In this document: positions 8,321 to 38,463 of the stretch, piece after piece
Numbering within the stretch: the first letter of the stretch is position 1
Layout of the letters: each line of letters starts with the position of its first letter
NCBI GenBank assembly: GCA_017309115.1
Contig: JAFLEF010000043.1
Location: forward strand, 1 to 64,000
Direction: 5' to 3'
DNA length: 64,000 nt
Source: Verrucomicrobiota bacterium
GTDB lineage: Bacteria > Verrucomicrobiota > Verrucomicrobiia > Limisphaerales > UBA9464
Translations under genes and position numbers: made by a program
The notes under the pieces: generated by a model
The model's input: the letters and a program-made list of their open reading frames with translations, nothing else
Databases searched by the model: none
Told to the model about the DNA's origin: nothing

Positions 8321-8890
8321 ATGACTTTCGATCTGCAACCGGCTCACTCGTCTCCGGATTCTTCGTCCGGTTCCGCTGCTTCGAGTGCGGGGTGGGCTTG
8401 GTATGCGGTTCAGACTCGGCCGGTCGCGGAGGAAGTGGCAGCAGAAACCTTGCGGTCGCTCGATTTGGAGACGGTTCTGCCGCGGGTCAAGCGGCTTCAG
8501 GGTCGGGGTTCCACAGCATCATTCCGAAGGCGTCCGCTATTTCCCGGCTACTTGTTTGTACGCTGCCATCCGGAGCGACACCTCCACGCGATCCGATACT
8601 CGCGCGGAGTGATCCGGTTGGTCGGCGGACGCGAGCATCCGGCCTCCATTGAGGAGGCGGTTATTGAGGCGTTTCGTAACCGCATGGATGCCGACGGGTG
8701 CGTGGAATTGGACGAACCGGGATTCCAACGCGGGGACCGGGTGCAAATCGAGTCGGGACCGTTTCGTGGCCTGCTTGGGGTTTTTGAACGCGGTCTCGAA
8801 GACCACCTGCGCGTGGTGATTTTGTTGGAGGCGCTACAGCAGGCTCAGCTCGTGCTGGACCGCCGTTGCCTCAGTCGAGTGGGGACCTAG
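8321..8890 (+). CDS. NusG/RfaH-family transcription antiterminator at the head of the eCIS operon
   Basis: The 189-residue protein has the NGN fold signatures WYAVQTRPVAEEVAAETL and FRRRPLFPGYLFVRC, then a KOW domain (GDRVQIESGPFRGLLGVFER). NusG-family proteins bind RNA polymerase across the clamp and suppress pausing; specialised paralogs (RfaH, LoaP, and AnfA1 of the Serratia afp cluster) act on one long operon. The gene is immediately upstream and co-directional with 29 kb of eCIS genes, so an operon-specific role is likely. Start choice is uncertain: ATG 8321 begins just before the NGN core, while ATG 8249 would add 24 residues. Neither has a strong Shine-Dalgarno. A ~30-residue low-complexity Ser/Pro/Ala leader precedes the NGN domain. 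Confidence 0.85.
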   Translation: MTFDLQPAHSSPDSSSGSAASSAGWAWYAVQTRPVAEEVAAETLRSLDLETVLPRVKRLQGRGSTASFRRRPLFPGYLFVRCHPERHLHAIRYSRGVIRLVGGREHPASIEEAVIEAFRNRMDADGCVELDEPGFQRGDRVQIESGPFRGLLGVFERGLEDHLRVVILLEALQQAQLVLDRRCLSRVGT

Positions 8891-8940
8891 CCCACTGCGT
8901 CGGAACCAGGCACGAAGGAAGAGCGGATCAAACCGCTGAT

Positions 8941-8952
8941 GGCGGCAGCCTG
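8941..8952 (+). promoter_or_regulatory. ops-like element GGCGGCAGCCTG in the eCIS leader
   Basis: The 12-mer matches the enterobacterial RfaH-recruiting ops element GGCGGTAGCGTG at 10 of 12 positions. It sits 50 bp after the NusG-like gene and 141 bp before the first eCIS gene, on the coding strand. Whether a Verrucomicrobial NusG paralog reads the same site is unknown, so this is a suggestive match only. Confidence 0.3.
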
Positions 8953-8978
8953 TCCGGAGATTTCTCTACCGATAAATC

Positions 8979-9022
8979 AGCTGAGAGCTGAGAGCTGAGA
9001 GTTGAGTTGAGAGTTGAGAGAA
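8979..9022 (+). repeat. GAGAGCTGAGAGTTGA array in the eCIS leader
   Basis: Five or six imperfect copies of (A)GCTGAGA/GTTGAGA lie between the antiterminator gene and the first eCIS gene. The family recurs at 284-420, 38678-38710 and 45806-45827. The remaining leader (9023-9092) shows no clear promoter. Confidence 0.55.
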
Positions 9023-9092
9023 AAGAACCCGAAACGAGACGATTCCGGTTCTGGCCGCTTTCCACGTTCGACTCCCGCTGAAACCCTGATTC

Positions 9093-9695
9093 ATGGCTCG
9101 AGATTCTGCTATTGCCGTTGTCAGCCGCGCGCTCGTGGGGCTGTTGGAGGATGCCTGTCCGCGGACACGGTTCCCCAGCGCGACGTTCCGATTGGTGCAG
9201 GCGACGGATTTGGAAGGAAACGCGCGACCCGTGGATCAGGGCGTTACAGTGTATTTGTTTCGCACGCTGTTCAGCACCAGCCGGCGGACCCTGCCACCGC
9301 GAACTGATGCCCAAGGTCGAAAATTCCGCGCGTCGGTCCCAGTCGACCTCCAGTATTTGGTAACGGCTTGGGCGGCTGACGTGGAACAACAGCAGCGGCT
9401 GCTGGGATGGGCGATCCGAACGTTGGATGACAATCCCATCCTGCCGGCAGGCTTTTTGAATCGGTTCGTACCGGGCGGTGAGAACGTGTTTGGCGAAGCG
9501 GAGACCGTGGAATTGCTGGGCGATCAGCTTTCCCTTCAGGATCTGTATAACGTCTGGGACGTGGCCGGTCACCGGCATCAGCCCTCCGTGCCGTACACCG
9601 TTCGCCAACTGGCCCTGGAGTCGGATCGGCCGCTGAGTGAGCACCCGGCCGTGCAGACCCGTGAGTTCGTCATGGGGTTGATGGATCAGAAGTGA
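9093..9695 (+). CDS. eCIS tail terminator / cap protein (DUF4255, Afp16/Pvc16-like)
   Basis: A 200-residue DUF4255 protein, matching the Pvc16 N-terminal family that caps the distal end of the tube and sheath and sets their length. Family features include the N-terminal helix IAVVSRALVGLLEDACP, the segment VTVYLFRTLFSTSRRTLPP, and VPVDLQYLVTAWAADVEQQQRLLGWAIRTLDDNPIL in two parts (VPVDLQYLVTAW; QQQRLLGWAIRTLDDNPIL). It is the first structural gene of the cluster, whereas afp16 is last in the Serratia locus; DUF4255-first order is common in non-proteobacterial eCIS loci. Its stop overlaps the next ATG (TGATG). Confidence 0.88.
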   Translation: MARDSAIAVVSRALVGLLEDACPRTRFPSATFRLVQATDLEGNARPVDQGVTVYLFRTLFSTSRRTLPPRTDAQGRKFRASVPVDLQYLVTAWAADVEQQQRLLGWAIRTLDDNPILPAGFLNRFVPGGENVFGEAETVELLGDQLSLQDLYNVWDVAGHRHQPSVPYTVRQLALESDRPLSEHPAVQTREFVMGLMDQK

Positions 9696-10564
9696 TGCGT
9701 ATTCCCCCGTCATTCCGCGAAGTGGATCGGTTCAGTCGGGTGTGTCCGGTGGGCTTGCGATTCTGGGACCCGGTGGACGCCGGATGGATCGACGATGGTC
9801 TCGAAGTTTTTGTGCGACCGGTGGGCCAGGAGTGGCCAAGGCAAACCCGGAATCCGGGTCAGCGGCTGCGCGCCACGCGCCGGGGTGCCTGGGTGGGGCA
9901 TGACTTGGCGGGATTGGGTTCGCTCGAACTGGGCCAAGGCGATGATGCGTACTGGGCGGACGTGGGGGTTGGTCGGGAGTACGACCTCGATGTGACGGAC
10001 ACCCTGGATCGATTTGTCCCAGTGCGGCTGCGAACCCGTCTGCCCGTTCGCGGCTGGTGTTCGCCCGCGTGTGTGGCGTCGCCGCCGAACCTTCCGTTGG
10101 GTGCCGTTCCCCTGTTCTCGTCGTCGTCGCGTCCGGTTCCGGCGGGGCGGGCAGTGGTGCGGATGGACCTTTGGGATACCGAACAGGAGCGTCCGGCCGC
10201 GTGGGCGCTGCTCACGGTGACGGCGCAGACCCCGACGGGTCCCTACACAGCCACCGGGATGGCGGGTGCGAACGGTTCCGTGGCGGTGATCTTTGCGTAT
10301 CCGGAACTGCCGCCGCCAAGTGGGCCAACATCGCCGCCTACGCAGGGAATGAATTTGTCGGACCAGTCCTGGCCGTTGCTGGTCGATGTGCGGTACGGGG
10401 CGTTGACCGGCGAAGGCGCTGCCGCTCCGGAACTGTGCACGGTCCTCGCGCAGCCTCTGACGAGCGTGGAGAACCTGATTCCGCCGGTGTTGCTGGCCAC
10501 CCGCGAACTATCCCTTTTCTCGAGCACCGATTTGTTCCGCCGTGGGCGGGTGGTGCCGGGGTAA
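9695..10564 (+). CDS. eCIS-associated protein of unknown function, next to the cap gene
   Basis: A 289-residue protein I cannot assign to a named family. It is rich in beta strands: a first half (VCPVGLRFWDPVDAGWIDDG, LEVFVRPVG) and a central stretch AVVRMDLWDTEQERPAAWAL with VTAQTPTGPYTATGMAGANG that looks like a carboxypeptidase-regulatory or Ig-like fold. It has no signal peptide or membrane segment. The ATG at 9695 overlaps the DUF4255 stop, so the two are translationally coupled, which suggests a shared job at the distal cap; additional cap or cap-adaptor proteins are known in some eCIS. Function is inferred from position only. Confidence 0.6.
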   Translation: MRIPPSFREVDRFSRVCPVGLRFWDPVDAGWIDDGLEVFVRPVGQEWPRQTRNPGQRLRATRRGAWVGHDLAGLGSLELGQGDDAYWADVGVGREYDLDVTDTLDRFVPVRLRTRLPVRGWCSPACVASPPNLPLGAVPLFSSSSRPVPAGRAVVRMDLWDTEQERPAAWALLTVTAQTPTGPYTATGMAGANGSVAVIFAYPELPPPSGPTSPPTQGMNLSDQSWPLLVDVRYGALTGEGAAAPELCTVLAQPLTSVENLIPPVLLATRELSLFSSTDLFRRGRVVPG

Positions 10565-10607: not shown

Positions 10608-12632
10608 ATGCCGGAATACCTGGCTCCGGGCGTTTACGTTGAGGAAACGTCCTTTCGCAGCAAATCCATTGAAGGGGTTAGCACCACGACCACGGGCTTT
10701 GTGGGCCCGGCGCGCTACGGGCCGGTTTTTCAACCGGCCGATGTTCTGACGAGTCTGGCCGACTTCGAACGCGTCCATGCCGGTGGTGGACGTCTGAGGT
10801 TTCGCGACGAATCCGGCACGGAAACTGGCGAGACGGACAACTTCCTGTGGCACGCCGCCCGGGGCTTCTTCGCTGAAGGGGGACGAAGGTTGTATGTGGC
10901 GCGGATCTTCCGCCCGCTGCCGGATTCCACGGGCGCGGAACAAACCTATCCGCCTAACTTCGCCGATCCTAGCTACACGCCCTTCAATCACGATTCGACC
11001 GAGGCACCCCTGTGGGACGATGGCCACGGCCGGAGCCAGATCGGCTCGTTGCTGAACATCCGATCGCGATTCCCGGGCCAGGCGAGCAACCTGATTGTGC
11101 GCCTGCGCGTGCGGGCGGGGCAGAGTGTGCTCGGCGCCGAATTGGATGCCGCCCGCTCGACGCCGTCTGGTCCGGTGTATCGTCCCAAACTCGGTGCCTT
11201 GATGCATGGCGACGTGGTGTGGATCGAAGGTTCAGGCAGTCTTCCAGCCGGCGGCTATTTCCAGGTAGAACGCGATCGCGTGGCGGACGTGTGGCGTTTC
11301 TTCGACGTGCTCAATTCGCTGCCGACCGGACGCACGGTGGAGGAGTTGGGATTGGTCCTCAGTCCGAATCGAGGCGAAGGCGATTCCATTCGCGTGGTCA
11401 CCGTCACCGTCAACGTGCTCTCCGATGATCGCGATCATGACCTGGGAAGCTGGGCGGACCTGCCCCTTGATCCCGGGCATCAACGCAGCGGTTCGTCCGA
11501 TTCGCTGTTTGCCCGATTCGAAGTCGCTCCCTCCTCCATCGCCGAAGCCCGCTCATTGCCGTTGGTGATGGCCCCGCCGCCCGCCGGAACCAATGGCGTG
11601 CAGATCCTCGAGGCGCTGCAGACGCAGTGGTTGGCGGATCATCCGGGAGCCACGACCCAGGATTGGCTGGAGGGTTTGGAACTGGGCAATGACCTGGAAC
11701 TGATTCTGCAAGGCGGCAACGACGGGCAACGTCCGGGAGCGGTCGAGTACGAAGGTAGGGCGGATGACACCGCCGACTTCAAGACGGGACTACGGCAGTT
11801 GGAAGACGTGGAAGACATCTCCATCGTCGCCGCGCCGGGCTGCACCGCGCAGTACGATTCCGAGAACGATCGCAACCAAGCCAACGCCACGCTCGGTCTA
11901 CTGATCGGTCATGCCGAGCGCATGCGTTATCGGATCGCCGTGCTCGATTCGCCGCCGGCGCAAAGCTTGGCGGACGTCCGAAACATCCGGGCCAAACTCG
12001 ATTCGAAGCACGCCGCTCTCTACTACCCCTGGGTCACCGTGCTGGATCCAGTGTCGCGCCGGGAACTCAATCTACCGCCCAGCGGCTTCGTCTCCGGCAT
12101 CTACGCGCGTAACGACATTCAACGCGCGGTGTGGAAGGCGCCGGCCAACGAAGTGGTGACGCTGGCCATCGGATTCGAGCAGTTGCTGAACAAGGGTCAG
12201 CAGGAAGTCTTGAATCCTCTCGGGATTAACTGTTTTCGGTTCTTCGAAGGCCGCGGCTTCCGACTCTGGGGTGCGCGGACTATCAGTTCAGATCCGGAAT
12301 GGAAGTACGTCAATCTGCGGCGGTACTTCGCCTACCTGGAACGTTCGATCGACAAGGGAACCCAATGGGCGGTCTTCGAGCCGAATGGGGATCAGTTGTG
12401 GGCGAACGTTCGGCGCACCATTGAGGATTTCCTGCTCAATGAATGGCAGCAGGGCGCGCTCTTGGGCGACAAGCCGGAGAAGGCGTTCTTCGTCAAATGC
12501 GACCGCTCCACGATGTCGCAAAACGACCTCGATAACGGCCGGTTGATCTGCCTGATCGGCATCGCTCCAGTGAAACCCGCCGAGTTCGTCATCTTCCGCA
12601 TCGGGCAGTGGACCGCCGACCGGAAGGTCTGA
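10608..12632 (+). CDS. eCIS contractile sheath protein (Afp2-type)
   Basis: This 674-residue protein forms the contractile outer sheath. The N-terminus PEYLAPGVYVEETSF with the following STTTTGFVGPARYGP is the tail-sheath signature, including the extended arm used in subunit handshakes. The C-terminal domain (EWKYVNLRRYFAYLERSID, WAVFEPNGDQLWANVRRTIE, FVIFRIGQW) is the strongly conserved sheath core. The middle ~300 residues are an insertion domain expected on the particle surface, making it longer than Afp2 (about 350-480). The ATG at 10608 has an AGGAG site 8 bases upstream. Confidence 0.93.
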   Translation: MPEYLAPGVYVEETSFRSKSIEGVSTTTTGFVGPARYGPVFQPADVLTSLADFERVHAGGGRLRFRDESGTETGETDNFLWHAARGFFAEGGRRLYVARIFRPLPDSTGAEQTYPPNFADPSYTPFNHDSTEAPLWDDGHGRSQIGSLLNIRSRFPGQASNLIVRLRVRAGQSVLGAELDAARSTPSGPVYRPKLGALMHGDVVWIEGSGSLPAGGYFQVERDRVADVWRFFDVLNSLPTGRTVEELGLVLSPNRGEGDSIRVVTVTVNVLSDDRDHDLGSWADLPLDPGHQRSGSSDSLFARFEVAPSSIAEARSLPLVMAPPPAGTNGVQILEALQTQWLADHPGATTQDWLEGLELGNDLELILQGGNDGQRPGAVEYEGRADDTADFKTGLRQLEDVEDISIVAAPGCTAQYDSENDRNQANATLGLLIGHAERMRYRIAVLDSPPAQSLADVRNIRAKLDSKHAALYYPWVTVLDPVSRRELNLPPSGFVSGIYARNDIQRAVWKAPANEVVTLAIGFEQLLNKGQQEVLNPLGINCFRFFEGRGFRLWGARTISSDPEWKYVNLRRYFAYLERSIDKGTQWAVFEPNGDQLWANVRRTIEDFLLNEWQQGALLGDKPEKAFFVKCDRSTMSQNDLDNGRLICLIGIAPVKPAEFVIFRIGQWTADRKV

Positions 12633-12671: not shown

Positions 12672-13124
12672 ATGGCTGTCCTACGCGAACGTCCCTACGT
12701 CCAGTTCAACTTCCTGGTCGATCTCGGCACCGGCAACACCGAGGGCCCCGAGGCTGGTTTCCAGGAGTGCAGCAACATCGGCATGGAAGTCACCGTGGCC
12801 GAGTATCGCAACGGCAACGAAAAGGAGAACAGCGTCCGTAAGATCACCGGACTCAACAAGTCCACCGACGTCACCCTCAAACGTGGCGTGATCGGTTCGC
12901 TGAATCTCTACCAGTGGCTGAACGAAATCCGAAATGGCAACCAGTCGGCAATGCGGACGGTCACCATTCATCTGCAAAACGAAGACCACACCGCCATCGT
13001 GCAGACTTGGAAACTGCTTCGGGCGCGCATCATCAAACACGTCAGCGGACCCATGAACGCCAAGGGCACGGACGTGGCCATGGAGGAACTCACCCTCAGT
13101 TACGAGCGGCTCGAGATGGAGTAG
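12672..13124 (+). CDS. eCIS inner tube protein (gp19 family, Afp1-type)
   Basis: A 150-residue T4 gp19-like tube subunit. The start RPYVQFNFLVDLG, the central VTLKRGVIGSLNLYQWLNEI and the end MEELTLSYERLEME form the Hcp/gp19 beta-barrel pattern. It should polymerise into the hexameric inner tube that is expelled on contraction. It follows the sheath gene by 39 bp, the usual sheath-tube order. A second gp19-like tube gene at 14918 probably supplies the baseplate-proximal ring. Confidence 0.92.
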   Translation: MAVLRERPYVQFNFLVDLGTGNTEGPEAGFQECSNIGMEVTVAEYRNGNEKENSVRKITGLNKSTDVTLKRGVIGSLNLYQWLNEIRNGNQSAMRTVTIHLQNEDHTAIVQTWKLLRARIIKHVSGPMNAKGTDVAMEELTLSYERLEME

Positions 13125-13185: not shown

Positions 13186-14916
13186 ATGCGACGAGCGCCC
13201 GCCATTCGGTTCGACACGGTTTCACCGCCGTCCGGGGAATCCCTGCCCCGGATGGATGTGCCGCTGTGGATTGGCCTGGTGTCTCCGGGCGGCCCGACGG
13301 CTCCGGTGCCTGTGGAAAGTGTGGAACAGTTCGAGCGGATCTTCGGCGGCGAAGTGCTGCTGGGCTGGAATCCGGTGCGGAAACGGAATGAGGTGTCCTG
13401 GTTGCCGCGGGCCGTGCGGCGCTTCTTTGCGCAGGGTGGTCAGCGCTGCTGGGTCTTGGGAATTCCCTACACCTACGGCGATCCGCTGACGCCCGAGCTG
13501 TGGGTCCACGAAGAACTGACGTCGGCCACCGTGGCGGATCTGCCGGCCCTGGCGGAAGCGGTGGTGACCCGTGGAGGACTTCTGCGGGGACTGCACGCCG
13601 CCTTCAGTCTCACCGAGCCGTCGCTCATTGCGCTGCCGGATCTGTCTCACGGGGTGGTTCGTCCGGTGGCGGCCCGGTCGAATCCGACGCCGAGCGCGGC
13701 CACGCCAAAGGAGGAGCACACGGTACGCGAAACGTTCCGTCCGTGTTCCTCCGATCGTCTTCCGGCTCCCCGACTCCGGGTGGAACGGTTGGAAGTTCCG
13801 GCGCCCGGGCTGCGTCTGCTGTGGACGCACCGGACCTCCGGAGCCAACGCCGTGGAAGTGCAGGAAGCGGGCGAACCTGACTTCCATCAGCCCGGCCTCC
13901 TCTTCCGGGGAGCGGGCCATCAAGCCACCGTCTGGGGTTCCTTCCCGGCGCTTCGTTACTTCCGGGCACGTTCGCTCGCGGGAGACCAGGCGAGCGCGTG
14001 GAGCGATCCTGTGGCTTTGATTCCGGAGATCCCGGAGGAACACAGTTTTGAAGTGGCGCCCGTGGATGCCGCCCGGAGAACGGAGATTCAAGGCGTCCAA
14101 CGAGCGCTGCTCCGATTGTGCGCGGCCCGGGGTGATACCGTGGCAGTGTTGGCAGTGCCGGAAGCCGTGTCCGCCGGGGACGCACGGTCCTTTGCCGAAG
14201 ACCTGGGTGATTCCAATGCTCTGTTCGTGCCCATCGGCCGACGAGGCATTCCACCTTTGAGTTCAAGCGAACAGAACGTTCTGTCCTTTGGGATGTTGGT
14301 TCATCCGTGGCTGGTGGAGCGGAACGCCGACGGAAGTCTGGTGTCGGTGCCGCCGGAAGCCGCGATGGTCAGCTTGATCGTGAAGCGGACTCTGGCGCGG
14401 GGCGTCTGGTACGCCCCGGGCAACGAACCGCTGACCGGGGTGATCGGACTGGAGCCCGGACTGAGCCGGGCGGATCAGAAGGTCCTAATCGCGTCCGGAA
14501 TCAACGTGCTTTCGAACGAGCCCAAGGGCGTGGTCAGTCTGACCGCCAACACGCTGACGGCCGACGAGGCGTATCGGCCGCTGGTCGTGCGCCGGTTGCT
14601 GGCTCTCTTGCGTCGGCTCGCGCTGGAGCGGGGTCAGCGGTACGCCTTTGAACCGCTTGGCGAGACGCTGTTGCGCACCGTCCAGCACAGCTTTGAGGAA
14701 CTACTGGGACGGCTATTCGCGCGCGGAGCGTTCGCTGGAAAAACGCCAGCAGCGGCGTATCGGGTCGAGACCGGTCCTACGGTGAACCCGCCGACCAACC
14801 TGGATCTCGGACGACTGGTCGTGGAACTCCGCGTGGCGCCCGCGTTGCCGCTGACCTTCATCACCCTTCGACTCGAGCAGGCTGGCGGGCAGGGCCTGAT
14901 CACCGAGGTCAATTGA
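13186..14916 (+). CDS. Second eCIS sheath-like protein with FN3-like insertion
   Basis: The 576-residue protein keeps the sheath layout. The N-terminal part (DVPLWIGLVSPGGP, FERIFGG, VRRFFAQGGQRCWVLGIPY) and the C-terminal core (YAFEPLGETLLRTVQHSFEE, ALPLTFITLRLEQ) are sheath-like, but the long N-terminal arm of the main sheath is missing. Residues ~196-278 (RLRVERLEVPAPGLRLLWTH to ARSLAGDQASAWSDPV) look like a fibronectin type III domain, an unusual insert that could decorate the particle or contact the baseplate. Its position between two tube genes matches afp3/afp4. The likely role is the baseplate-proximal sheath ring. Confidence 0.8.
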   Translation: MRRAPAIRFDTVSPPSGESLPRMDVPLWIGLVSPGGPTAPVPVESVEQFERIFGGEVLLGWNPVRKRNEVSWLPRAVRRFFAQGGQRCWVLGIPYTYGDPLTPELWVHEELTSATVADLPALAEAVVTRGGLLRGLHAAFSLTEPSLIALPDLSHGVVRPVAARSNPTPSAATPKEEHTVRETFRPCSSDRLPAPRLRVERLEVPAPGLRLLWTHRTSGANAVEVQEAGEPDFHQPGLLFRGAGHQATVWGSFPALRYFRARSLAGDQASAWSDPVALIPEIPEEHSFEVAPVDAARRTEIQGVQRALLRLCAARGDTVAVLAVPEAVSAGDARSFAEDLGDSNALFVPIGRRGIPPLSSSEQNVLSFGMLVHPWLVERNADGSLVSVPPEAAMVSLIVKRTLARGVWYAPGNEPLTGVIGLEPGLSRADQKVLIASGINVLSNEPKGVVSLTANTLTADEAYRPLVVRRLLALLRRLALERGQRYAFEPLGETLLRTVQHSFEELLGRLFARGAFAGKTPAAAYRVETGPTVNPPTNLDLGRLVVELRVAPALPLTFITLRLEQAGGQGLITEVN

Positions 14917-14917
14917 T

Positions 14918-15397
14918 ATGGCCAATCCCGCCCGCGAAACGACGGAGCATCCCTTCACGGCCTTTCGCTTTGCCGTGGAGATTGAGATTCCCGGAGTGAC
15001 CGCGAACGCCTGTCACGGCGCCTTTGCCGAATGTGACGGCGTGGAGCTGACCCTCGACGTGAAGACGATTCGGGAAGGCGGCAACAATGCGGCGCCCATC
15101 CGTCTCACCGGTCCGATCAATCTGGGCACTGTCACCCTTAAGCGCGGCATGACGGCCAATTTCGATCTGTGGGATTGGCTGACGGCGTTGCAGGAGGAGG
15201 GCAACGGCAAGCTGCGAGCGACGACCAAGATTGTCGTGATGGCGTCCGACGGGACCGAGAACGCTCGCTTCGTGTTGAAGCGATGTTTGCCGGTGAAACT
15301 CAAGGCCCCGGCGCTCAATGCCAAGGACGGCATGGTGGCGGTGGAGGAATTGCAGATGGTTTACGAATCCTTGGAGTTGGTGAAACCCCGACGCTGA
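14918..15397 (+). CDS. eCIS tube-initiator / second tube protein (gp19 family, Afp5-type)
   Basis: A 159-residue gp19-like protein: HPFTAFRFAVEIEIPGV, VTLKRGMTANFDLWDWLTAL and VAVEELQMVYESLELVKP parallel the tube protein at 12672 but with changed loops. In AFP/PVC the afp5-type tube protein forms the ring that adapts the tube to the spike. It begins 1 bp after the sheath-like gene, and the next gene starts 1 bp after its stop, so expression is tightly coupled. Confidence 0.88.
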   Translation: MANPARETTEHPFTAFRFAVEIEIPGVTANACHGAFAECDGVELTLDVKTIREGGNNAAPIRLTGPINLGTVTLKRGMTANFDLWDWLTALQEEGNGKLRATTKIVVMASDGTENARFVLKRCLPVKLKAPALNAKDGMVAVEELQMVYESLELVKPRR

Positions 15398-15398: not shown

Positions 15399-16151
15399 AT
15401 GGCCGACGCCGCCCCCTTGGTGAAAGCCGAGCTCCGTGAGCTCGACGAGAACTTCGAGAACGAAAAGAACCCGGAGCGTACCGCCATCGTGCAGTTCAAT
15501 CCCGAGTCGTTGAAGGTGAGCTTCGCCAATCAGGTGAAGACACCCGAAGGCTCCGGAGATCAGCGGGGTACTCCGGCGCGGCAATTCGTTGGCGCGGGGA
15601 CCACGAAGCTGGCTCTGCTCGTGTGGTTCGACGTGATGGCGCTGCCCGACGGCGAGAACACCGAGAACGACGTGCGCAATCTTACTCGCAAGGTGTCCTA
15701 CTTCATTACACCGCAGGAAACCACGGATCGTCCGCCGAAGTTCGTGCCGCCGGCGGTGCGGTTCATTTGGGGTTCCTTCCAGTTCGACGGCATCATGGAG
15801 TCGCTGGAGGAATCGCTGGAATACTTCTCCGCCGACGGTCGGCCGCTGCGGGCCAGCATGTCCTTCACGCTCACGCAGCAGAAGATCAAGGCCTTCACCG
15901 TGCCAGCCAGTGAGCGCGGCAAACGTCCGCCTCCGGCCACAGCGGCTGCCGGGAGTGCGGGGGCGGATCCCTCAGCGGCTGCCGGAACCAAGCCGCTGAC
16001 CGCTGCGCCCGCCGGCGCTTCGCTTCAAGGCTTGGCCGAAGGCGCGGGATTGGGTGCGGATTGGAAGCAGATTGCTTCCGCCAATGGCATCGAGAATCCC
16101 CGGCTGCTCCAACCCGGTCAGCTCATCGACCTTAACGTGTCCACCCGCTGA
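15399..16151 (+). CDS. eCIS LysM-containing baseplate adaptor (Afp7-type)
   Basis: A 250-residue protein. Residues 1-175 are the CIS tube/baseplate adaptor domain (AIVQFNPESLKVSFANQVKT is the family hallmark). A flexible Ala/Pro-rich linker follows (about 175-205), then a LysM domain to the end (WKQIASANGIENPRLLQPGQ). In T4 the gp53-type LysM domain clamps neighbouring wedges and hub; Afp7 is its eCIS equivalent. The gene order tube2-LysM-small protein-hub follows afp5-7-6-8. Confidence 0.9.
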   Translation: MADAAPLVKAELRELDENFENEKNPERTAIVQFNPESLKVSFANQVKTPEGSGDQRGTPARQFVGAGTTKLALLVWFDVMALPDGENTENDVRNLTRKVSYFITPQETTDRPPKFVPPAVRFIWGSFQFDGIMESLEESLEYFSADGRPLRASMSFTLTQQKIKAFTVPASERGKRPPPATAAAGSAGADPSAAAGTKPLTAAPAGASLQGLAEGAGLGADWKQIASANGIENPRLLQPGQLIDLNVSTR

Positions 16152-16154: not shown

Positions 16155-16331
16155 ATGCCTGTGATCATCGATCAGTTTGAAGTGATTCCCGCGGGAGAAC
16201 GGCCTTCGGCCACTCCGGCTGCCTCGACTGCGAGCGCGGAGTCCTCCGTCAGCGAAGTCGAACTGGCGGCAACCTTAGCGGCGGTTCTGCGCGACGCCGC
16301 CGAACGTGCCGAACGGGTTCGCGCCAGCTAG
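16155..16331 (+). CDS. Small eCIS protein, DUF5908-like (Afp6-type)
   Basis: This 58-residue gene starts at ATG 16155, three bases after the LysM gene, and ends with TAG at 16329-16331. It begins MPVIIDQFEVIPAGE and ends in an amphipathic helix (SEVELAATLAAVLRDAAERA) with a short basic tail. Size, the MP-hydrophobic-strand start and the acidic/Arg-rich helix agree with DUF5908 (Afp6/Pvc6), whose role is not well understood. The position between the LysM adaptor and hub genes is the conserved place for it. Confidence 0.72.
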   Translation: MPVIIDQFEVIPAGERPSATPAASTASAESSVSEVELAATLAAVLRDAAERAERVRAS

Positions 16332-31108: not shown

Positions 31109-33115
31109 ATGATTCGGTCTCCCTCCGCGGCGTTGCGAATTCGTGAGCTTCGCGCGCGACTTCCCATTCGAGAGGCGGTGGGAGCGCGCTTCGCCTTGGA
31201 GCATCAAATTGCCGGGAGCGTGGCTCCCGAGGCGATTCTGCCAGTGGGTGCGTGGTTGGTGGTCCGATCGCTGCGGGATCCGCAGCCACGTGCGCTGAGT
31301 TGTCGGCATGATCGAGTGATGGCGCCGGCCGCCTGGCAAAGCGCGTTTCGCGGGCGCCTGGAACAGATGCTGGCGGCGGCGGGGCGTCCGATTAACGGAG
31401 TCATCACTGGCGACACCGAGGCCGTGCTGTTCCGGCATTTGGGGGAACTGCTCGCCTGTCTGGCCCAATCGTGGCGGGCGGGACGGGTGGGGCAGGAATG
31501 GTGGTGGCGAAGTCTGTTGGGCGAACTTCGTCCGGAATCCTGGGTGGACGCCTGGACCTTTCACGCCGAGGCCATTCCCTCCGCTCTTTCGCAACTCGCC
31601 GCCCACGCTGCCTTGGAATCCACGCTCGCCCCGCTTCCGTCCCGGGAGACGTCGGCGCTGATCGCGGCCCTGGTGCAGCGCTTCCAATTGGACCCCTGCC
31701 TCCTTCCGGACTCACCGATGAATGCCTGGCTCCATCCCGCACTTGGCTCCGTTCCCCAGGTTGATTCTCCGGCGCAAGAATCCGCCTCGACGGCGGCGAC
31801 GTTCCCGTCTCCTCCAGCTGTTGGCACGGAGGAAATACCTCAAGAGCCCTTCGCTTCCGGCAGGGAATCCACGCCAGTTTCGAGTGAACTGACCGCACTG
31901 TTGCCCGAGGTCACGGGTTCTGGGTGGTCGCGCTCCGCACTCGCAGTGGTGGCGATTGGATTGATCCTGGAGCGGGCGCCGCAGCGGGTTCGCGCCGCGG
32001 AGTTTGGGGCGCAGATGGCTCAGTGGATGGAGGCGATTCGCCCTGTTGAGCCGATTACGGAGCCACCGCGAAGACCACAGAACTCTCCGAAGGCTAAGTC
32101 GCGGTTTCCTTCTGAGACTCCTGCGTCCGGTTCTGAGTTCGCCGCGCAATTTGAGACCGTCCAACAGGAAGTCGTGCGCCCACCCGCGGAAGATTTCGCG
32201 AAGTCTGAGTCGCCGGCGCTTGATACAGCCATCGTCCACAACTTGCCCACCGCGGCGGAGGCTCGGAACTCGGAATCAGAATTCTCCGGAGCCGCCACCC
32301 GCGCGGACGGCGGACAGGATTGGATCCGAGACGTAGTGGTGAGGGAGGAGTTCGCCACTGCGGCGGGCGGCTTGTTCTACCTCACCAACGTGGCCTTGGC
32401 GCTGGGTCTATACGGTGATTTTACTCAGCCTCGACGACCGGGAATTGAACTGCCGTTCTGGGATTTTCTGGCCGTTATTGGGGACCGCGTTCTGGGACCT
32501 GCCTTCCGCGCGGATCCGCTCTGGGAGTCGCTGGCCCATTGGTCGGGACGCGAGCCCAATGAGCCGCCGGGGGGCCGTTTCATTCCCCCTGCGGACTGGT
32601 CTCTGGAGACGTCCTGGTTGGTGCCGTTCCAAGAATCACCAGCGATCTCCTGGCTGTGGGCGAAGGGACAATTGCGGGCGTGGCATGACGCGGGATTTGT
32701 GGCCTTGGATCGGGCTTGTGCCTCGGCCGACGCCGCGGAGACCGAAGTACTCCGGTGGTTACCGGAAGGTTGGACGGCGAAGCGTCTGATGGACCCGCGG
32801 CTGACGGGTCCGGTGGCCCCGCGGGATCCCGCGGAATCCGCCACCGCTCGTCAGCGCCGCGCCCTTCGCCGGTGGCTCGCTCGGTTGCTCCCGTATCTGC
32901 AGGCCCGGTTGCGCCGGGCGCTTCCGTCGCTGAACGAGGAACATCTTTTGCGAAGCGTGCTTCGGCAGCCCGGACGGATCCGCTGTTCGCCCACGGAAGT
33001 CGTGGTGCAGTTCCCGCTCGTGTCGCATCCCCTGGCGATCCGGATGGCTGGGCTCGATCGCGATCCCGGCTGGGTGCCGGCAGCAGGACGTTCCATCTCC
33101 TTTGTCTATGACTGA
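31109..33115 (+). CDS. Conserved-looking eCIS protein of unknown function preceding the AAA+ ATPase
   Basis: A 668-residue cytosolic-type protein with no signal peptide. The first ~200 residues are mostly helical (FRHLGELLACLAQSWRAG), followed by a Ser/Pro/Glu-rich low-complexity linker (~210-390) and a second folded region starting at AAGGLFYLTNVALALGLYGD and DFLAVIGDRVLG, a motif I associate from memory with uncharacterised proteins of other eCIS loci. The C-terminus (RALPSLNEEHLLRSVLRQPG, VVQFPLVSHPLAIRMAGLDR) is also globular. It overlaps the ATPase gene by 8 bp, so a partnership with the ATPase in assembly is plausible but unproven. Confidence 0.6.
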   Translation: MIRSPSAALRIRELRARLPIREAVGARFALEHQIAGSVAPEAILPVGAWLVVRSLRDPQPRALSCRHDRVMAPAAWQSAFRGRLEQMLAAAGRPINGVITGDTEAVLFRHLGELLACLAQSWRAGRVGQEWWWRSLLGELRPESWVDAWTFHAEAIPSALSQLAAHAALESTLAPLPSRETSALIAALVQRFQLDPCLLPDSPMNAWLHPALGSVPQVDSPAQESASTAATFPSPPAVGTEEIPQEPFASGRESTPVSSELTALLPEVTGSGWSRSALAVVAIGLILERAPQRVRAAEFGAQMAQWMEAIRPVEPITEPPRRPQNSPKAKSRFPSETPASGSEFAAQFETVQQEVVRPPAEDFAKSESPALDTAIVHNLPTAAEARNSESEFSGAATRADGGQDWIRDVVVREEFATAAGGLFYLTNVALALGLYGDFTQPRRPGIELPFWDFLAVIGDRVLGPAFRADPLWESLAHWSGREPNEPPGGRFIPPADWSLETSWLVPFQESPAISWLWAKGQLRAWHDAGFVALDRACASADAAETEVLRWLPEGWTAKRLMDPRLTGPVAPRDPAESATARQRRALRRWLARLLPYLQARLRRALPSLNEEHLLRSVLRQPGRIRCSPTEVVVQFPLVSHPLAIRMAGLDRDPGWVPAAGRSISFVYD

Positions 33116-35159
33116 CACCACCGACTCCACTGGATTGCGGGACGCGTTGCTGGACCAGTATGACATCAGTGCGGCGACCCATCTGGAATTAATTCTTCAC
33201 GGGTCGGCGTTGGCCTTGTTCGCCTTTGCCGCGGAGACTCAGGAAGGACGGGATTGGCTGGGCGAATTTCCGGTTTTGGAGAGCTACGTGGGACCGGCGC
33301 AGACCCTCGGTGCGGCCGCCGAATCCCCGGCGTCGCTAGCGGTTGCTTGGAGTCGCGCCGTGGGCGAGTGGTCCCAGGCCGGTGGTGAGTCGTTGCCGCT
33401 GGTGGAACTGTCCCGCGTGACCGGATGGAGCTGTGGTTGGGAATTCGCGTTGGCTCCAGCCTTGGTGGAGGAGGATCCGCGGCTGGGGCCGTTCGTGCAG
33501 GAACTCACTGGCCAGCCTCGCCTCAGTTGGAGCGCGCTGCGGAGCGTGTTCCGGCGCCGGGAACTTCCCGTGCCGGCCAGTTCCTGGGCGCGACGATTGG
33601 TCGACCTGGGATTCTGGACGCGCACAGAGGACACCGGCTTCGCCGCAGTTCCCCAGGTGGCCGCGCCAATTTGGGAGGCGCTGGCCGGCGAAGTGCCGCG
33701 ACTTCCTGGTTCCGGCCTGGAAGGGATCCCGTGGGAACGTCTGCGAAGTTTGGACGAACTGGTGATTCCCCCTTCGCTGCGACGGGAAGTTGAATCGTTG
33801 GCGGAGGTGGTGGGGCAAGGAGATGTCCGACGACTCTGGCTGTGGAGTCATCCTCATAACGGACGTCGCGCCGTCGCCGAAGCGCTCGCACGCCAACGCA
33901 GCCGCGGCCTGCTGCTGGTCGACGGCGATCCCCGCGGTCTGGCCGAACGCATCCGACTGGCGGGAGTGTTGTCCGTGCTGTTGCGGGCGATTCCGTGTCT
34001 GCGTCTCGAACCGGGCGGAATGGAGTCCGGAGTTTTTGAACTGACCGGGTCGTTGGGAGTTCCCTGGATCTTCACCGCCGAGCCCGGAACGCCGCTCACG
34101 GGAAATCAGGCGTCCGGCAGTTTGCATTTGAGCTGGGGCTTGCCCGAGACCGGACCCCGGGAAGAACTGTGGCGCCGCTTTGGTCCCACCTTGGAGCCCG
34201 CCGCCCGCGCGCGCCTCGCCCGGCAACGCAGGACGGCCAGTGGCTGGACCGCGCGCTTGGCGTCCCTGGCCGCGACGCATGCGCAGATCGCCGGGCGGCA
34301 GCGGACCGTGCTTCCCGACGTGGTTCGCGCCGAGCGGGAACTCACCCAGGCGGAACTCGGAACCGCGGCGCGACGGCTGGAGCCGGTGTCGGGCTGGGAG
34401 GATCTGGTGGCGCCTCCGATGGTGCTGACCGAATTGCGCGTGCTGGCCGAACGGTGCCGGCTGCGGGAGGATCTGCGGCATCAGGTGGGTGGTGCCGGCG
34501 GGAATGCCGGCGTGCGGGCCTTGCTGGGAGGTCCGAGTGGCTGCGGCAAAACGCTGGCCGCGCGCGTGCTGGGGGCAGTGCTCGAGTTGGAAGTTTATCG
34601 GGTGGATCTGTCGTCGGTGGTGAACAAGTACCTCGGCGAAACGGAGAAGAATTTGCATCAGCTGCTCACCCGGGCCGAGCAGTGCGGCGTCCTGATGTTG
34701 CTCGATGAAGGCGATTCCCTCCTGGCACCCCGCACCGCAGTGGGCAGCGCCCATGACCGCTACGCCAATCTGGAAACCAACTTCCTGCTGCAACGGTTGG
34801 AGACGTTCGAGGGGATCCTGATCATCACCACCAACGCCCGGGAGCGGATCGATTCGGCCTTTCAGCGGCGCATGGATGTCATCCTGGATTTCCCGGCGCC
34901 CGGACCCGACGAGCGGCGGGTTTTGTGGAACGTGCATTTGCCCGCGGAACACGACGTTGAGCCGCGGTTGCTGGACGAGGTGGCGGTGCGGTGCGCGTTA
35001 ACCGGCGGACAGATTCGCAACGCGGTTTTGCACGCGGCGCTGTTGGCTGCGGGACAAAGCCGTCTCGTGGATGACGCGAGTCTGCTCGCCGCAGTGCAAC
35101 GCGAGTTCACCAAGCTCGGCGGCGTGTGTCCGCTGCGCCGAGTCCTGCCGGTGAACTGA
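33108..35159 (+). CDS. eCIS AAA+ ATPase (Afp15/Pvc15-type)
   Basis: The 683-residue protein has a ~460-residue N-terminal part and a C-terminal AAA+ module. The Walker A motif GGPSGCGKT is at residues 474-482, Walker B MLLDEGDSLL has D533-E534, sensor-1 is IITTN, and the arginine-finger region is FQRRMDVILDFPAP. Afp15-type ATPases are required for particle assembly or cargo loading in AFP/PVC. ATG 33108 is chosen because it gives an 8-bp overlap with the previous stop; a TTG at 33102 is possible. The gene lies 19 bp before the probable effector, consistent with a loading function. Confidence 0.9.
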   Translation: MTDTTDSTGLRDALLDQYDISAATHLELILHGSALALFAFAAETQEGRDWLGEFPVLESYVGPAQTLGAAAESPASLAVAWSRAVGEWSQAGGESLPLVELSRVTGWSCGWEFALAPALVEEDPRLGPFVQELTGQPRLSWSALRSVFRRRELPVPASSWARRLVDLGFWTRTEDTGFAAVPQVAAPIWEALAGEVPRLPGSGLEGIPWERLRSLDELVIPPSLRREVESLAEVVGQGDVRRLWLWSHPHNGRRAVAEALARQRSRGLLLVDGDPRGLAERIRLAGVLSVLLRAIPCLRLEPGGMESGVFELTGSLGVPWIFTAEPGTPLTGNQASGSLHLSWGLPETGPREELWRRFGPTLEPAARARLARQRRTASGWTARLASLAATHAQIAGRQRTVLPDVVRAERELTQAELGTAARRLEPVSGWEDLVAPPMVLTELRVLAERCRLREDLRHQVGGAGGNAGVRALLGGPSGCGKTLAARVLGAVLELEVYRVDLSSVVNKYLGETEKNLHQLLTRAEQCGVLMLLDEGDSLLAPRTAVGSAHDRYANLETNFLLQRLETFEGILIITTNARERIDSAFQRRMDVILDFPAPGPDERRVLWNVHLPAEHDVEPRLLDEVAVRCALTGGQIRNAVLHAALLAAGQSRLVDDASLLAAVQREFTKLGGVCPLRRVLPVN

Positions 35160-35178
35160 ACGCACTTCTTCGTTCCTC

Positions 35179-38100
35179 ATGCCTGGCGTCACCCGTCCCC
35201 TGCCTCCGCGCGCGCGGCGGCCAGCGGTCCCGCCGCGTCAGGATCCCCGGTTCCGCAAAGTTGAAGAACGCATCCAGGGCAACAACCGCAAACTGAAGAA
35301 GCATCCGCCTGCCCGGCAGAAAGCGAAGGAGGCGCAGTCAGCCGCCGTCGCTCCGCCCAAGGAACGGCTGGCGGGTGCGCAGGCCAATTCGGTGGACGCG
35401 ATGCAGTCGGCGCCCACGGGCAAGCCGGAGCCCAGTGGATTCCTCGCGTTGCTCCGTGCCGAGATCGAGAAAGTAATGCCGCAGAATCTCGATGAAGCGG
35501 ACAACTTCATGGAGGGCGGCCAGAAGGAGCAGATGCGCTCCGCAGTCTCCGGCAATGTCGAAGCGCAGTCGGAACAGGCCGCGGCCGGAATTCAGGGTGC
35601 GACCGAGACCGCCCCGGATCCCAGTCAGGTTCCCGCGCAACCCACCACGCCGATCCCGGGCGAGCCGGCGCCGGCCGCAGTTCCCGTTCCCGCCGCGGAG
35701 GGAATGCCTACGCCCAAGCCGGATGGTGATATCTCCTTCAAGGCCACGAAGGACGAGGCGGATAGCCGGTTGAAGGAAGCCGAGGTTACGCCCGAGCAGT
35801 GTAAGAAGGCCAATGACCCCCGTTTCAGTCAGGTCCTGACCGCCAAGGCCGCCAGCGATCAACAGTCGGAACAAGCGCCAAAACTCTATCGCGCGGCGGA
35901 ACGAAAACCGCTGGCGACCGCGGCGAATCTAGCGACTTCCGAAACGCGCTCCGGACTGGGTCGGATGCGAACGTCCCACGGTCGAGCGAAAGACGGAGTC
36001 CGGAATCGCCAGGAGGAGGCGAAGAAGCGCAACGAGTCGCGGCGCAAGGCCGTGGCCGATCACATCGAGGGAATTTATCTCCAGACCAAGACCAAGGTGG
36101 AGGCCAAATTGGCCACCCTGGAGACGGTCGTGTTGCAGCAGTTCGACGCTGGGGCCAGTGCGGCGATCGAACAGATGAAGTCCGACTCGGAACGGGACAT
36201 CGAGAAGTTCAAGGACGAGCGCTACAGCGGGATCAGAGGCAAGGGCCGTTGGATCGCCGATTTGTTCCGGCCGGTTCCCCCGGAGATTAAACAAATCCTC
36301 CAGCGCAATCGCGCGGTGTTCACCCAACGCATGGATTCTTTGGTCGTACGGATTTCCGGCACGGTCGATCGAATTCTGGGCGAAGCGAAGGCGGAGATCG
36401 GCAAGGGTCAGGCGCGCATCAAGGCTTACGTGGCGGGATTGCCTGCGGACTTGCAGGCCGTGGGTCGCGAGGCGGAAGGCCGGGTGAACGAACAGTTCAC
36501 GGCGCTCACCGAACAGGTGAACGGCGCGGCCAACGCCCTCGCGCAGAAGCTGGCGCAACGCTACAAGGAGGCGGGCGAGAAGGCCGACGCCGAACTGAAG
36601 AAGATCGAGGAGGCCAACCAGGGCGCGTTCTTCGGCTTCGTTAAAGCGCTCGGCGAGATCGTCAAATTGCTCCTCGAGTTTAAGGACAAGCTGATGTCCG
36701 TCCTGCGCAAGGGACTGGCCACCATCAAGCTCATCCTGGCCGACCCGATTGGCTTCCTGGGGAACCTCATTGCTGCGATCAAGGGCGGCATCGCGGCGTT
36801 CGTCGCCAACATCTGGACCCATCTCAAAGCCGGTTTCATCAAGTGGCTCGCCGGTCCACTCGCAGGCGCCGGGGTGGCCATTCCCAAGGACTTCTCCCTT
36901 CCCTCCATTTTCAAGCTGGTGATGGACCTGCTGGGCCTCACCTACGAGAAGCTGCGCGCCAAGGCGGTCAAACTGATCGGCGAGCGCAACGTCAAGATCC
37001 TGGAGCGGCTCTTCGAGTACGTGAAGACGCTCATCACCGAAGGACCCGCGGCGCTGTGGGAAAAGGTGAAGGAGGACCTGAGCAACCTGAAGGCGATGGT
37101 GGTCGACGCGATTCAGGATTGGATCGTCACCACCATCGTGAAGCAGGCGGTGATCAAGCTGGTGTCGATGTGTAATCCCGCCGGCGCGATCATCCAGGCG
37201 CTCACGGCCATCTACAATACGGTGATGTTCTTCATCGAGAAGGCGCAGCAAATCTGGGCTTTCGTCGAGGCGATCATCAACTCGGTTCACGCCATCGCGA
37301 CCGGGGCCATCGGCGGCGCCATTGCTTGGATCGAACAGTCGTTGGCGCGCCTGATTCCCGTGCTGATCGGATTCCTTGCGCGGTTGATCGGGCTGGGCGG
37401 CATCACGGAGAAGGTGGTTGGCATCATCAAGAAAGTGCAGGCGGCGGTGGATCGAGCCATCGACAAGGTCCTGGCGAAGATCGTGGCGACGGTGAAGAAG
37501 TTGTTCGGGAAAGCAGTGGCGGGAGCCAAGGCGGTGGGCGCGAAATTGGTCGAATGGTGGAAGGTCCGGAAGTCCCTGCGAACGCGCGACGGCGAGGCGC
37601 ACAGTCTGTACTTCGCGGGACAGGGCCGCAGCGCGAAGCTCACCGTCGCGAGCGCGCCCATGGAGGTGAAGGCCTTCGTGGCGTCCAAGGCGGCGGAGAT
37701 CAAGGCCGACAAGACGGGCAAGAAGAAGGCCGCCGCCGCGGCGCTCAAGCCCTTTATTGATGCGGTGGAAAAGGCTGAGGCGTATCCGGAGGACCAGCAC
37801 GAAAAGGCGCAGAAGGAAATCAGCGACGCCATGAACGCGATGGGGCCCTTCCTCATCGAGTTGCTCAGCAGCACCGACTGGGGGTCCGATGAGAATCCGC
37901 TGCCGCTCGATTACACCAAACGACGCGCGGGTTCATATCCGGTGCTGTACTTCGGTCCCAAGTCGGCCTCCCGCATTCCCCAGTCCCTGCTTCAGGGCGG
38001 CAGTAAAACCGAGATCGATAAGATTCTGACCAAGCCCGAACGCGATGCCTGGAAGAGCCAAGGCAAAATCATTACCCGCTATGCCCCGTACCAAAAGCAG

Positions 38101-38463
38101 GCGCTCCCGGCCGGCGGCCCGACCATTGGGCTCGACGCCGCGTATCAGGTCGAGGTCGGAAAGAAAGTGAAGTACAAGGCGGGGAAGACGGCAGGGGGCG
38201 GACTCATCAACAGTTTGTTGCATCCGTACGGCTACCGGGCGCGGTCGGAGGGCAAGGACGGCGACCACATCGTCGAGATGCAAATCGGGGGACCGAATGC
38301 GATCGGAAACCTGTGGCCTCTCGACAAGGGCGAGAATCGTTCGAGCGGCGCCGCCCTGGCGGGTCGGAAGGTGACGACACCGGAGGGCAAGTCGCTCGGC
38401 ATCGACGAAGCCAACAAGAAGCGGAAGAACAACCTGACCCTCATGATCGTGAAGACGCTCTGA
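35179..38463 (+). CDS. Probable eCIS cargo / tape-measure-like protein with C-terminal HNH-like nuclease motif
   Basis: A 1094-residue protein. Residues 1-260 are basic, Pro/Ala-rich and probably disordered; ~270-470 are charged coiled-coil helices; ~480-830 are hydrophobic and amphipathic helices (GFLGNLIAAIKGGIAAFVAN, GGAIAWIEQSLARLIPVLIG) as in the central part of eCIS-associated toxins. A linker leads to a C-terminal domain with DHIVEMQIGGPNAIGNLWPL starting at residue 1029 and GENRSSG after it, an HNH-type pattern (H1030, N1044, N1053 or nearby). The DUF4157 peptidase domain of many eCIS cargos is absent. It is the last gene of the string, directly after the ATPase, and no immunity-like gene follows. 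Because no other tape measure was found, its long helical body could also serve that role. Confidence 0.7.
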   Translation: MPGVTRPLPPRARRPAVPPRQDPRFRKVEERIQGNNRKLKKHPPARQKAKEAQSAAVAPPKERLAGAQANSVDAMQSAPTGKPEPSGFLALLRAEIEKVMPQNLDEADNFMEGGQKEQMRSAVSGNVEAQSEQAAAGIQGATETAPDPSQVPAQPTTPIPGEPAPAAVPVPAAEGMPTPKPDGDISFKATKDEADSRLKEAEVTPEQCKKANDPRFSQVLTAKAASDQQSEQAPKLYRAAERKPLATAANLATSETRSGLGRMRTSHGRAKDGVRNRQEEAKKRNESRRKAVADHIEGIYLQTKTKVEAKLATLETVVLQQFDAGASAAIEQMKSDSERDIEKFKDERYSGIRGKGRWIADLFRPVPPEIKQILQRNRAVFTQRMDSLVVRISGTVDRILGEAKAEIGKGQARIKAYVAGLPADLQAVGREAEGRVNEQFTALTEQVNGAANALAQKLAQRYKEAGEKADAELKKIEEANQGAFFGFVKALGEIVKLLLEFKDKLMSVLRKGLATIKLILADPIGFLGNLIAAIKGGIAAFVANIWTHLKAGFIKWLAGPLAGAGVAIPKDFSLPSIFKLVMDLLGLTYEKLRAKAVKLIGERNVKILERLFEYVKTLITEGPAALWEKVKEDLSNLKAMVVDAIQDWIVTTIVKQAVIKLVSMCNPAGAIIQALTAIYNTVMFFIEKAQQIWAFVEAIINSVHAIATGAIGGAIAWIEQSLARLIPVLIGFLARLIGLGGITEKVVGIIKKVQAAVDRAIDKVLAKIVATVKKLFGKAVAGAKAVGAKLVEWWKVRKSLRTRDGEAHSLYFAGQGRSAKLTVASAPMEVKAFVASKAAEIKADKTGKKKAAAAALKPFIDAVEKAEAYPEDQHEKAQKEISDAMNAMGPFLIELLSSTDWGSDENPLPLDYTKRRAGSYPVLYFGPKSASRIPQSLLQGGSKTEIDKILTKPERDAWKSQGKIITRYAPYQKQALPAGGPTIGLDAAYQVEVGKKVKYKAGKTAGGGLINSLLHPYGYRARSEGKDGDHIVEMQIGGPNAIGNLWPLDKGENRSSGAALAGRKVTTPEGKSLGIDEANKKRKNNLTLMIVKTL

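Follow-up and report, generated by a model that had tools for sequence, protein, structure and literature searches.

A PAAR-less contractile injection system locus of a Verrucomicrobiota bacterium: a protein with a hydrophobic segment in the tip slot and a candidate scaffold-borne cargo

Bases 1-64,000 of contig JAFLEF010000043.1 from a Verrucomicrobiota bacterium (GCA_017309115.1), here called the window, contain a locus for an extracellular contractile injection system (eCIS). The contig measures 65,856 bp, with less than 2 kb of it outside the window, and the host genome comprises 7.53 Mb in 111 contigs. Judged by its profile matches, the stretch 8321-38463 is a genuine eCIS-type operon read in one direction. 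By sequence comparison, it belongs to a group of contractile injection systems (CIS) that crosses phyla and is characterized by the absence of PAAR, a hydrophobic protein in the slot of the spike tip and a scaffold-type candidate cargo without DUF4157. Taking the locus as a whole, we consider it fairly probable that it encodes a contractile particle of the eCIS superfamily in which protein 18146 (proteins are named by the first base of their genes) stands in place of the PAAR tip, the cargo is exchangeable and expression is under sigma-54 and antiterminator control. How the tip of a CIS crosses a membrane, and what sets release, anchoring or firing inside the producer, are open questions in the field. 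With its PAAR-less tip slot and extreme hydrophobic segment, the 18146 family may offer a handle on both.

Twenty-one genes, all on the + strand, occupy 8321-42181. Most of them overlap or lie close together, and the widest intergenic gaps are 253 nt before 38717 and 202 nt before 9093. The hallmark set of an eCIS (sheath, tube, gp25, J, spike, DUF4255 protein and AAA ATPase) is present in this one operon. The main sheath (10608-12632; Phage_sheath_1, 5.8e-20) is followed by inner tube 1 (12672-13124; gp19, 1.6e-34), a second, divergent sheath (13186-14916), inner tube 2 or tube initiator (14918-15397; 5.7e-30) and an adaptor (15399-16151). Further along lie a gp27-like hub (16349-17416), a spike of gp5/VgrG C-terminal type (17423-18139; Phage_base_V, 6.8e-26), a gp25 wedge (20149-20550; 1.4e-22), the gp6/J baseplate wedge (20555-22834; TIGR02243 1.4e-68, Pfam 0.001 and under cut-off), the CIS12-like baseplate protein gp7/I (22865-25774; TIGR02242 1.3e-22, Pfam gpI 6.8e-7) and an Afp15-like AAA+ ATPase (33102-35159; Pfam 1.9e-20). 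Genome-wide, the two sheath matches both fall in this locus, and there is no third sheath.

The initial annotation, made from the letters alone, had named these parts, and the profile searches largely bear it out. Its sheath, two tubes, spike, gp25, gp6/J, gpI and ATPase were all matched, as was the hub, which has no Pfam match and reaches VgrG_rel (NF033848, 8.1e-28) under the cut-off. The second sheath gave a weak profile match (2.4e-5) that lies under the Pfam cut-off, while the proposed LysM adaptor is firm in its CIS_tube part (2.9e-24) and falls just under the cut-off in its LysM part (8.8e-4). The DUF4255 cap had been placed at 8321; it is instead the 200-aa Pvc16_N/DUF4255 protein at 9093-9695 (Pfam 4.7e-31), and 8321-8890 encodes a NusG/RfaH paralogue. 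A capsid module next to the locus, which would have spoken for a phage, did not appear: a Pfam scan of ten of the open reading frames (ORFs) flanking 8321-38463 yielded no capsid, portal or terminase, and a phage remnant was rejected on this absence of head genes.

The gene at 18146-20152 lies in the tip slot, between those for the spike and gp25. Residues 609-652 of the protein form a hydrophobic C-terminal segment with a KD19 of 3.18, and 18146 is the only one of the 20 window proteins checked (glycosyltransferase left out) in which KD19 exceeds 2. This segment is found in all 35 distinct members of the family, with KD19 values of 2.19-3.23; it makes up the C-terminal end in 33 of them and is followed by an extension in L073 and L031. 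Trimmed rows of the relatives vary in length from 509 to about 750 aa. The tip-slot protein of the CIS on a Rhodococcus opacus strain 9 plasmid matches the hidden Markov model (HMM) of the family (154.8 bits) and likewise displays the segment and then an extension. That homologue was found by synteny and HMM, and a plasmid search with the window protein gave no match, indicating that single-sequence searches miss members of the family. Against Pfam, NCBIfam and PHROGs, 18146 has no match at E 0.1.

PAAR and eCIS_core (DUF4157) are described as core domains of eCIS (PMC8213781). PAAR is not in every CIS, and eCIS_core is absent from some loci. We searched for PAAR (PF05488) and DUF4280 (PF14107) in 27 genomes, comprising 25 with an 18146 locus together with G314 and G326, and found PAAR in nine and DUF4280 in six. 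None of these matches falls inside an 18146 locus in any of the 25 genomes, the nearest case being one on the same contig about 400 kb away (G358:C1), and the genome of the window has neither domain. Four genomes with an 18146-type CIS appear to contain a second CIS as well (G351:C42, G356:C75, G357:C97 and G358:C2), and there a PAAR match stands at a distance of 10-16 kb from the ATPase match.

A search with the ATPase in 196 genomes of the order led to syntenic loci, and a search with a four-row alignment of 18146 returned 31 loci in genome contigs, including L043 and L055 as the source loci of two query rows, and three in viral contigs. By their record titles, these come from Verrucomicrobia, Acidobacteria, Burkholderiales and relatives, Methylotetracoccus, Moraxellaceae and Ktedonobacteraceae; named strains with the family include Derxia gummosa DSM 723, Variovorax, Hydrogenophaga and Roseateles. 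As far as each contig reaches and a hit was found (best tblastn hit and iterated search), the 34 loci share the order sheath-tube-sheath-tube-adaptor-hub-spike-18146-gp25-J-I-fibre-28180. In 33 of the 34, 18146 is preceded by the spike, the exception being the truncated L059, and in 33 it is followed by gp25, with L054 giving no gp25 hit. In L073 the 18146 member was seen by iterated search alone, and the stretch from I to the relative of 31109 yielded no fibre gene. Outside this set, G157 (L030/L031) has 18146 as well, but there the two CIS13-like genes come behind the ATPase.

The sheath tree (35 rows, 315 columns, midpoint root) separates 30 rows with 18146 from five without by a 98/98 branch; the outgroup is small, several of its rows are long, and row L035 fills only 36% of the columns. 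The window falls into a starred set of ten, together with Derxia, Burkholderiales, Accumulibacter, Roseateles and one viral contig. Its closest sheath in the tree is that of Derxia gummosa, with 79% identity over 305 columns. Given this grouping and identity, transfer of the locus between phyla is the simplest reading of the sequences.

As judged by the best PDB matches, the sheath and J of the locus are closest to the cytoplasmic CIS of Streptomyces coelicolor (PDB 9GTP/9GTS, lineage IId): 8bky/9gtp is the best solved match of the sheath (2.9e-105), with 9ezm nearly as close (8.1e-102), and 9gtp is the only match of J at E <= 0.001 (6.1e-38). Both systems have two tube genes and no PAAR, but the window differs in its second sheath, its fibre-type gene, its protein in the Afp14 slot and 18146. 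PMC10066040 describes the S. coelicolor CIS without PAAR and Streptomyces CIS without a tail fibre gene, whereas in the window a PHROG tail-fibre family matches 25860. CisA is a membrane protein in its own right, with its gene downstream of those for the baseplate (PMC12237407). With AlgoCIS of Algoriphagus (clade Ib), the locus shares a short cap with a cap adaptor, a small plug, a LysM tube initiator and cargos with differing C-termini; unlike AlgoCIS, which has the PAAR-like Alg10 and DUF4157 cargos (PMC8894135), it lacks both, and the AlgoCIS sheath is a more distant match (6.8e-44).

The antifeeding prophage (AFP) and the Photorhabdus virulence cassettes (PVC), both of clade Ia, offer a similar set of functions, with an RfaH-type operator in PVC and AFP and an RfaH-related regulator in AFP. 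In AFP, the cap gene comes last and Afp14 has its place before the ATPase. The AFP/PVC gene order proposed in the initial annotation was therefore rejected, as here the cap stands first, hub and spike are split and PAAR is absent; the match to the Afp3 sheath is weaker too (1.4e-47). The Derxia gummosa DSM 723 locus, besides having the closest sheath, shares the scaffold cargo and a glycosyltransferase gene, but differs by a cargo C-terminus of its own and by the lack of an antiterminator match in about 10 kb upstream. A fibre from this strain, though not necessarily from this locus, is in a published catalogue of eCIS fibres (PMC12923769). The Rhodococcus plasmid CIS (NZ_CP095404.2) follows the window through cap, adaptor slot, sheath, tube and sheath and, further on, through the 58-aa gene, hub, spike, 18146 slot, gp25, J and I. 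It differs in having BTAD regulators upstream and DUF4157 proteins between the second sheath and the second tube.

The gene at 35179-38463, which the initial annotation had not singled out, likely encodes the cargo. Residues 1 to about 800 are common to seven of the eight relatives examined, at 30-82% identity per 50-aa block, while the eighth (L095) shares only residues ~480-840 of this scaffold. Beyond residue ~800 the relatives diverge unless they have the same type of C-terminus; the total length is similar in the window and seven relatives (1094-1164 aa). By eye, three motif types can be told apart: DxDH...LWPL in the window, L078, L081 and L083; GHLLN...NLTP in L080, L085 and L095; and ESHHxPQK in L079 and L088. 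A conserved N-terminal part with an exchangeable C-terminal part is the pattern by which polymorphic toxins are recognized, and 35179 displays it; its C-terminus would then be an exchangeable toxin of predicted nuclease type. The Endonuclea_NS_2 profile (PF13930) exceeds its cut-off only in L080 (5.5e-7), is weak in L095 (7.9e-4), L078 and the window, and is without a match in the other four C-termini scanned.

No eCIS_core domain accompanies this scaffold here: there are no matches in the window's genome, while the same search matches in seven of 12 relatives. It is absent from five of the seven genomes with the full scaffold and lies on another contig in the other two. Counterparts of residues ~474-850 of 35179 follow an eCIS_core domain in L028, and L095 has them together with an HExxH site. 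Thirty-five plasmid records match the scaffold with other C-terminal ends, one of these proteins being annotated as a DddA-like deaminase. The combination of a scaffold without DUF4157 and three or more types of C-terminus suggests a second design of cargo beside the eCIS_core cargos. Two other loci were noted in this context: plasmid pAT6 of Aureibacter tunicatorum (L131) bears a tail-like locus with two DUF2586 proteins and fibre-type genes and, elsewhere on the plasmid, an ATP-binding protein adjoining a scaffold-bearing protein annotated as an endonuclease, and in G281 the cargo slot holds a 2939-aa ORF (L026, 1141-9957, - strand) with an annexin match (1.5e-8).

Both ends of the locus carry candidate regulators. 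The antiterminator paralogue (8321-8890; 189 aa from ATG 8321, a start of our choice in an open frame that begins at 8027) is over the cut-off of PF02357 (1.8e-18), and against RfaH TIGR01955 it scores 8.4e-26 and 90.9 bits, under the cut-off of 144.5. A sigma-54 (-24/-12) promoter-like site, CGGCACGCGAGTTGCA at 8275-8290 (+ strand), ends 30 nt before this ATG, inside the open frame 8027-8890. It is the sole match to YGGCACGN4TTGCW on both strands of the 64 kb, where 0.06 are expected and six of 100 shuffles contain at least one. Consensus scans of 8200-44100 found no sigma-70-like site. On the - strand at 42359-43852, an AAA+ sigma-54 activator with a Fis-type helix-turn-helix (PF00158, 2.1e-61) is a candidate regulator, and the genome encodes an RpoN-type factor. 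Taking in this gene and the glycosyltransferase-methyltransferase gene before it, the eCIS-type locus probably extends to 43852. Of 93 loci searched, many of them overlapping, nine (eight genomes and one viral contig) have a homologue of the activator close to CIS genes; mostly shared domains align, and such activators are common.

We scanned 25 loci of relatives, 23 of them distinct and with DUF4255 (L044 duplicates L104, and for L106 no position of DUF4255 is available). Nine of the 23 have a sigma-54-type site with up to two mismatches at -322 to -403 of DUF4255, an interval that was set after seeing the hits and within which related strains are counted separately; with a background of 0.054 sites per kb at this stringency (1.88 million strand-bases), about 0.1 would be expected there. 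In L032, a perfect site stands 273 nt before that locus's own antiterminator gene. They may offer a clue to the timing of particle production. Among the papers listed for sigma-54 and contractile injection systems none is on eCIS by title, and a literature search for eCIS with NusG as whole words gave none. By eye, L104, L105, L107-L110 and L053 seem to encode a small winged-helix-like protein between the site and DUF4255, as does L116 ahead of its antiterminator gene. The small protein that L111 and L061 seem to encode is another one and resembles DUF3467.

The antiterminator itself is sparsely distributed. The two best non-self matches in the 196 genomes are both at CIS loci, and among the fetched loci an antiterminator lies beside a CIS only in the window, G314 and G326, so that it was rejected as a general part of the lineage. 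Twelve further hits from 387 genomes of the phylum have no CIS gene within a flank of about 1.5 kb (shorter in L120). The leader that separates the antiterminator gene from the cap gene contains an element at 8941-8952 (+ strand) that agrees with ops at 10 of 12 positions; such matches are frequent by chance in the window, which leaves this element weak. In stretches of L032 (5713-6085) and L116 (4655-4807) behind their antiterminator genes, the same 16-mer, CGAYGTGCGGAGCTTT, follows the gene at a distance of about 50 nt and may be a shared element; it bears some resemblance to published operator sequences of PVC. AFP and PVC are already described as being under RfaH-type control (PMC6748792), and this part of the locus is hence not new.

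From these parts, a course of events can be proposed. The AAA+ activator encoded at the opposite end of the locus would open the sigma-54 promoter and so give rise to a transcript of about 30 kb, whose first product, the NusG/RfaH-like antiterminator, would keep RNA polymerase running through the operon. By homology and position, sheath, two tubes, adaptors and baseplate would assemble as in other CIS, and cap and cap adaptor would close the particle. Protein 18146 would substitute for a PAAR tip on or close to the spike, and its hydrophobic C-terminal segment may insert into or dock on a membrane, aiding the crossing of the tube or triggering firing. Fibre 25860, with 28180, would bind the target, and the cargo 35179 would be carried by its ~800-aa scaffold and deliver an exchangeable C-terminal toxin with presumed nuclease activity; the mode of release we infer as well. 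For 18146 itself our proposal is tentative: a membrane-inserting spike-tip or tip-docking part may replace PAAR in one horizontally spread CIS group, its hydrophobic tail, rather than the PAAR cone, crossing or sensing membranes. Part of this group would be sigma-54-switched, and a few members would have a dedicated antiterminator.

Several observations weigh against this course of events, beside the choice of the promoter interval after the fact. Protein 18146 is placed at the spike only by gene order and the absence of PAAR, and a sequence search against the PDB gave nothing better than E 0.15. The apparent second CIS loci with PAAR in four genomes are known from PAAR and ATPase matches, and the related loci of G314 and G326 have neither 18146 nor a PAAR or DUF4280 match. 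Thirteen of the 23 relatives have no sigma-54 site in the interval; L097-L103, with the closest relatives among them, belong to these, as does L054, where only 168 nt upstream are in view. For the cargo, PF13930 is weak in 35179 of the window (E 0.14, not over cut-off), and two Streptomyces plasmid records with the scaffold have no annotated CIS gene within 12 kb, in a gene table that is incomplete.

The strongest competing explanation, which we nevertheless regard as rather unlikely, is that of an ordinary eCIS whose accessory genes evolve fast and whose mechanism is the usual one. The core parts are standard by profile, some CIS such as that of S. coelicolor are reported simply to have no PAAR (PMC10066040), and an eCIS-associated toxin of Verrucomicrobia, RfaH-type control and toxins at the 3' end have already been described (PMC8213781, PMC6748792). 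However, a single gene family fills the tip slot across a PAAR-less group of several phyla, and this family keeps its extreme hydrophobic segment. Unlikely, too, is a particle that is never released and works in or at the producer's own membrane, like the thylakoid-anchored CIS (tCIS) or the cytoplasmic CIS of Streptomyces, with the tail of 18146 as anchor or firing trigger. It would agree with the closeness of sheath and J to the Streptomyces CIS among solved structures, and in tCIS and CisA systems it is membrane factors that determine how the particle acts (PMC8894136, PMC12237407). Yet the window has a phage-fibre-type gene where Streptomyces CIS have none, 18146 is in another slot than CisA or Cis13 (set apart by position alone), and the mode of action is held to be unreliable from sequence (PMC12998442).

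Still less probable is a luminal or tape-measure-like 18146 whose hydrophobic stretch enters the target only after firing, with 31109 not being the tape measure. This idea draws on the hydrophobic segments that phage tape measures commonly carry, and no member of the 31109 alignment matches a Pfam tape-measure family; the length of 18146, however, varies among relatives, and it is 31109 that holds the Afp14 slot. Least probable of all is that 35179 is a tape measure with an attached toxin domain rather than a free cargo: PHROG tape-measure profiles match residues 319-785 (1.2e-7) and 409-842 (4e-7) and total lengths are alike, but long helical proteins score easily on such profiles, scaffold homologues occur without CIS genes annotated nearby, and the same-lineage loci L025 and L077 have eCIS_core cargos in this slot, so that a tail can be built without the scaffold.

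Returning to the proposed injector with 18146 at its tip, several further proteins are shared with its relatives. The initial annotation had set 9695, 18146, 28180 and 31109 apart as unusual extras that are not standard AFP parts. They are not local, however: relatives occupy the same slots, and by sequence these four are parts common to the whole sub-lineage, not additions to AFP. The 289-aa product of 9695-10564 is a probable cap adaptor, in the slot and of the length of AlgoCIS Alg16B (284 aa; PMC8894135). An ORF fills the slot between DUF4255 and sheath in all eight loci looked at; the alignment of the window with seven of these eight (L115 was left out) and L075 has identities of 24-31%. 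Its sole PDB match by sequence is at E 0.26. The 58-aa product of 16155-16331 is plug-like and in the Alg6/DUF5908 position. As a DUF5908-like protein it found no support in profiles, with no DUF5908 match and no hit in Pfam, NCBIfam or PHROG, but a 52-65-aa ORF ends near the hub in 29 of 31 relatives, and a start pattern of our choosing is matched in this slot in 15 of the 31.

The fibre gene (25860-28139) combines a CIS13-like N-terminus with phage-fibre-type repeats. Its designation as a fibre is backed by one PHROG tail-fibre family (phrog_9729, 2.3e-7; the other PHROG matches are to families of unknown function), but the N-terminal CIS13 match (NF053767, 1.9e-5) is far under the cut-off. 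A second protein with a CIS13-like N-terminus, 28180 (28180-31101), has a long C-terminus with a weak HHH/DUF4332-like match, and its N-terminal ~340 aa recur in relatives by iterated search. Such searches, in which stretches fetched twice count twice, yielded overlapping sets of 65 ORFs from 25860 and 68 from 28180. KD19 nowhere reaches 1.6 in either protein, and there is no transmembrane helix as in the thylakoid-anchored Cis13 fibre. Before the ATPase, 31109 (31109-33115) takes the slot of Afp14, the tape measure (PMC10066040), with conserved ends and a variable middle. Iterated search gave 25 related ORFs; 31109 was rejected as a member of a Pfam tape-measure family, since none was among the Pfam matches of 15 members of its alignment.

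Next after the cargo, 38717-42181 encodes a 1154-aa GT2-GT9-GT9-methyltransferase protein (Pfam). Such a gene directly follows the cargo in three of eight relatives, overlapping by 4 nt in L078 and L079 and separated by 1 nt in L085. We would guess that the protein modifies a particle protein or the surface of the producer. The ten flanking ORFs scanned look chromosomal; two are without a Pfam match, and the others match an FAD oxidoreductase, an FGGY kinase, a MIP channel, an IS200-type transposase, a gamma-glutamyltranspeptidase, a RecC-like protein and the glycosyltransferase-methyltransferase and sigma-54 activator described above. Upstream of the locus, at 4453-7990, a 237-nt element occurs three times and a 112-nt element four times beside the Y1_Tnp (IS200-like) transposase at 4892-5962. 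At the extreme edge of the window, positions 40-114 (+ strand) match a group II intron (RF00029, 54.8 bits).

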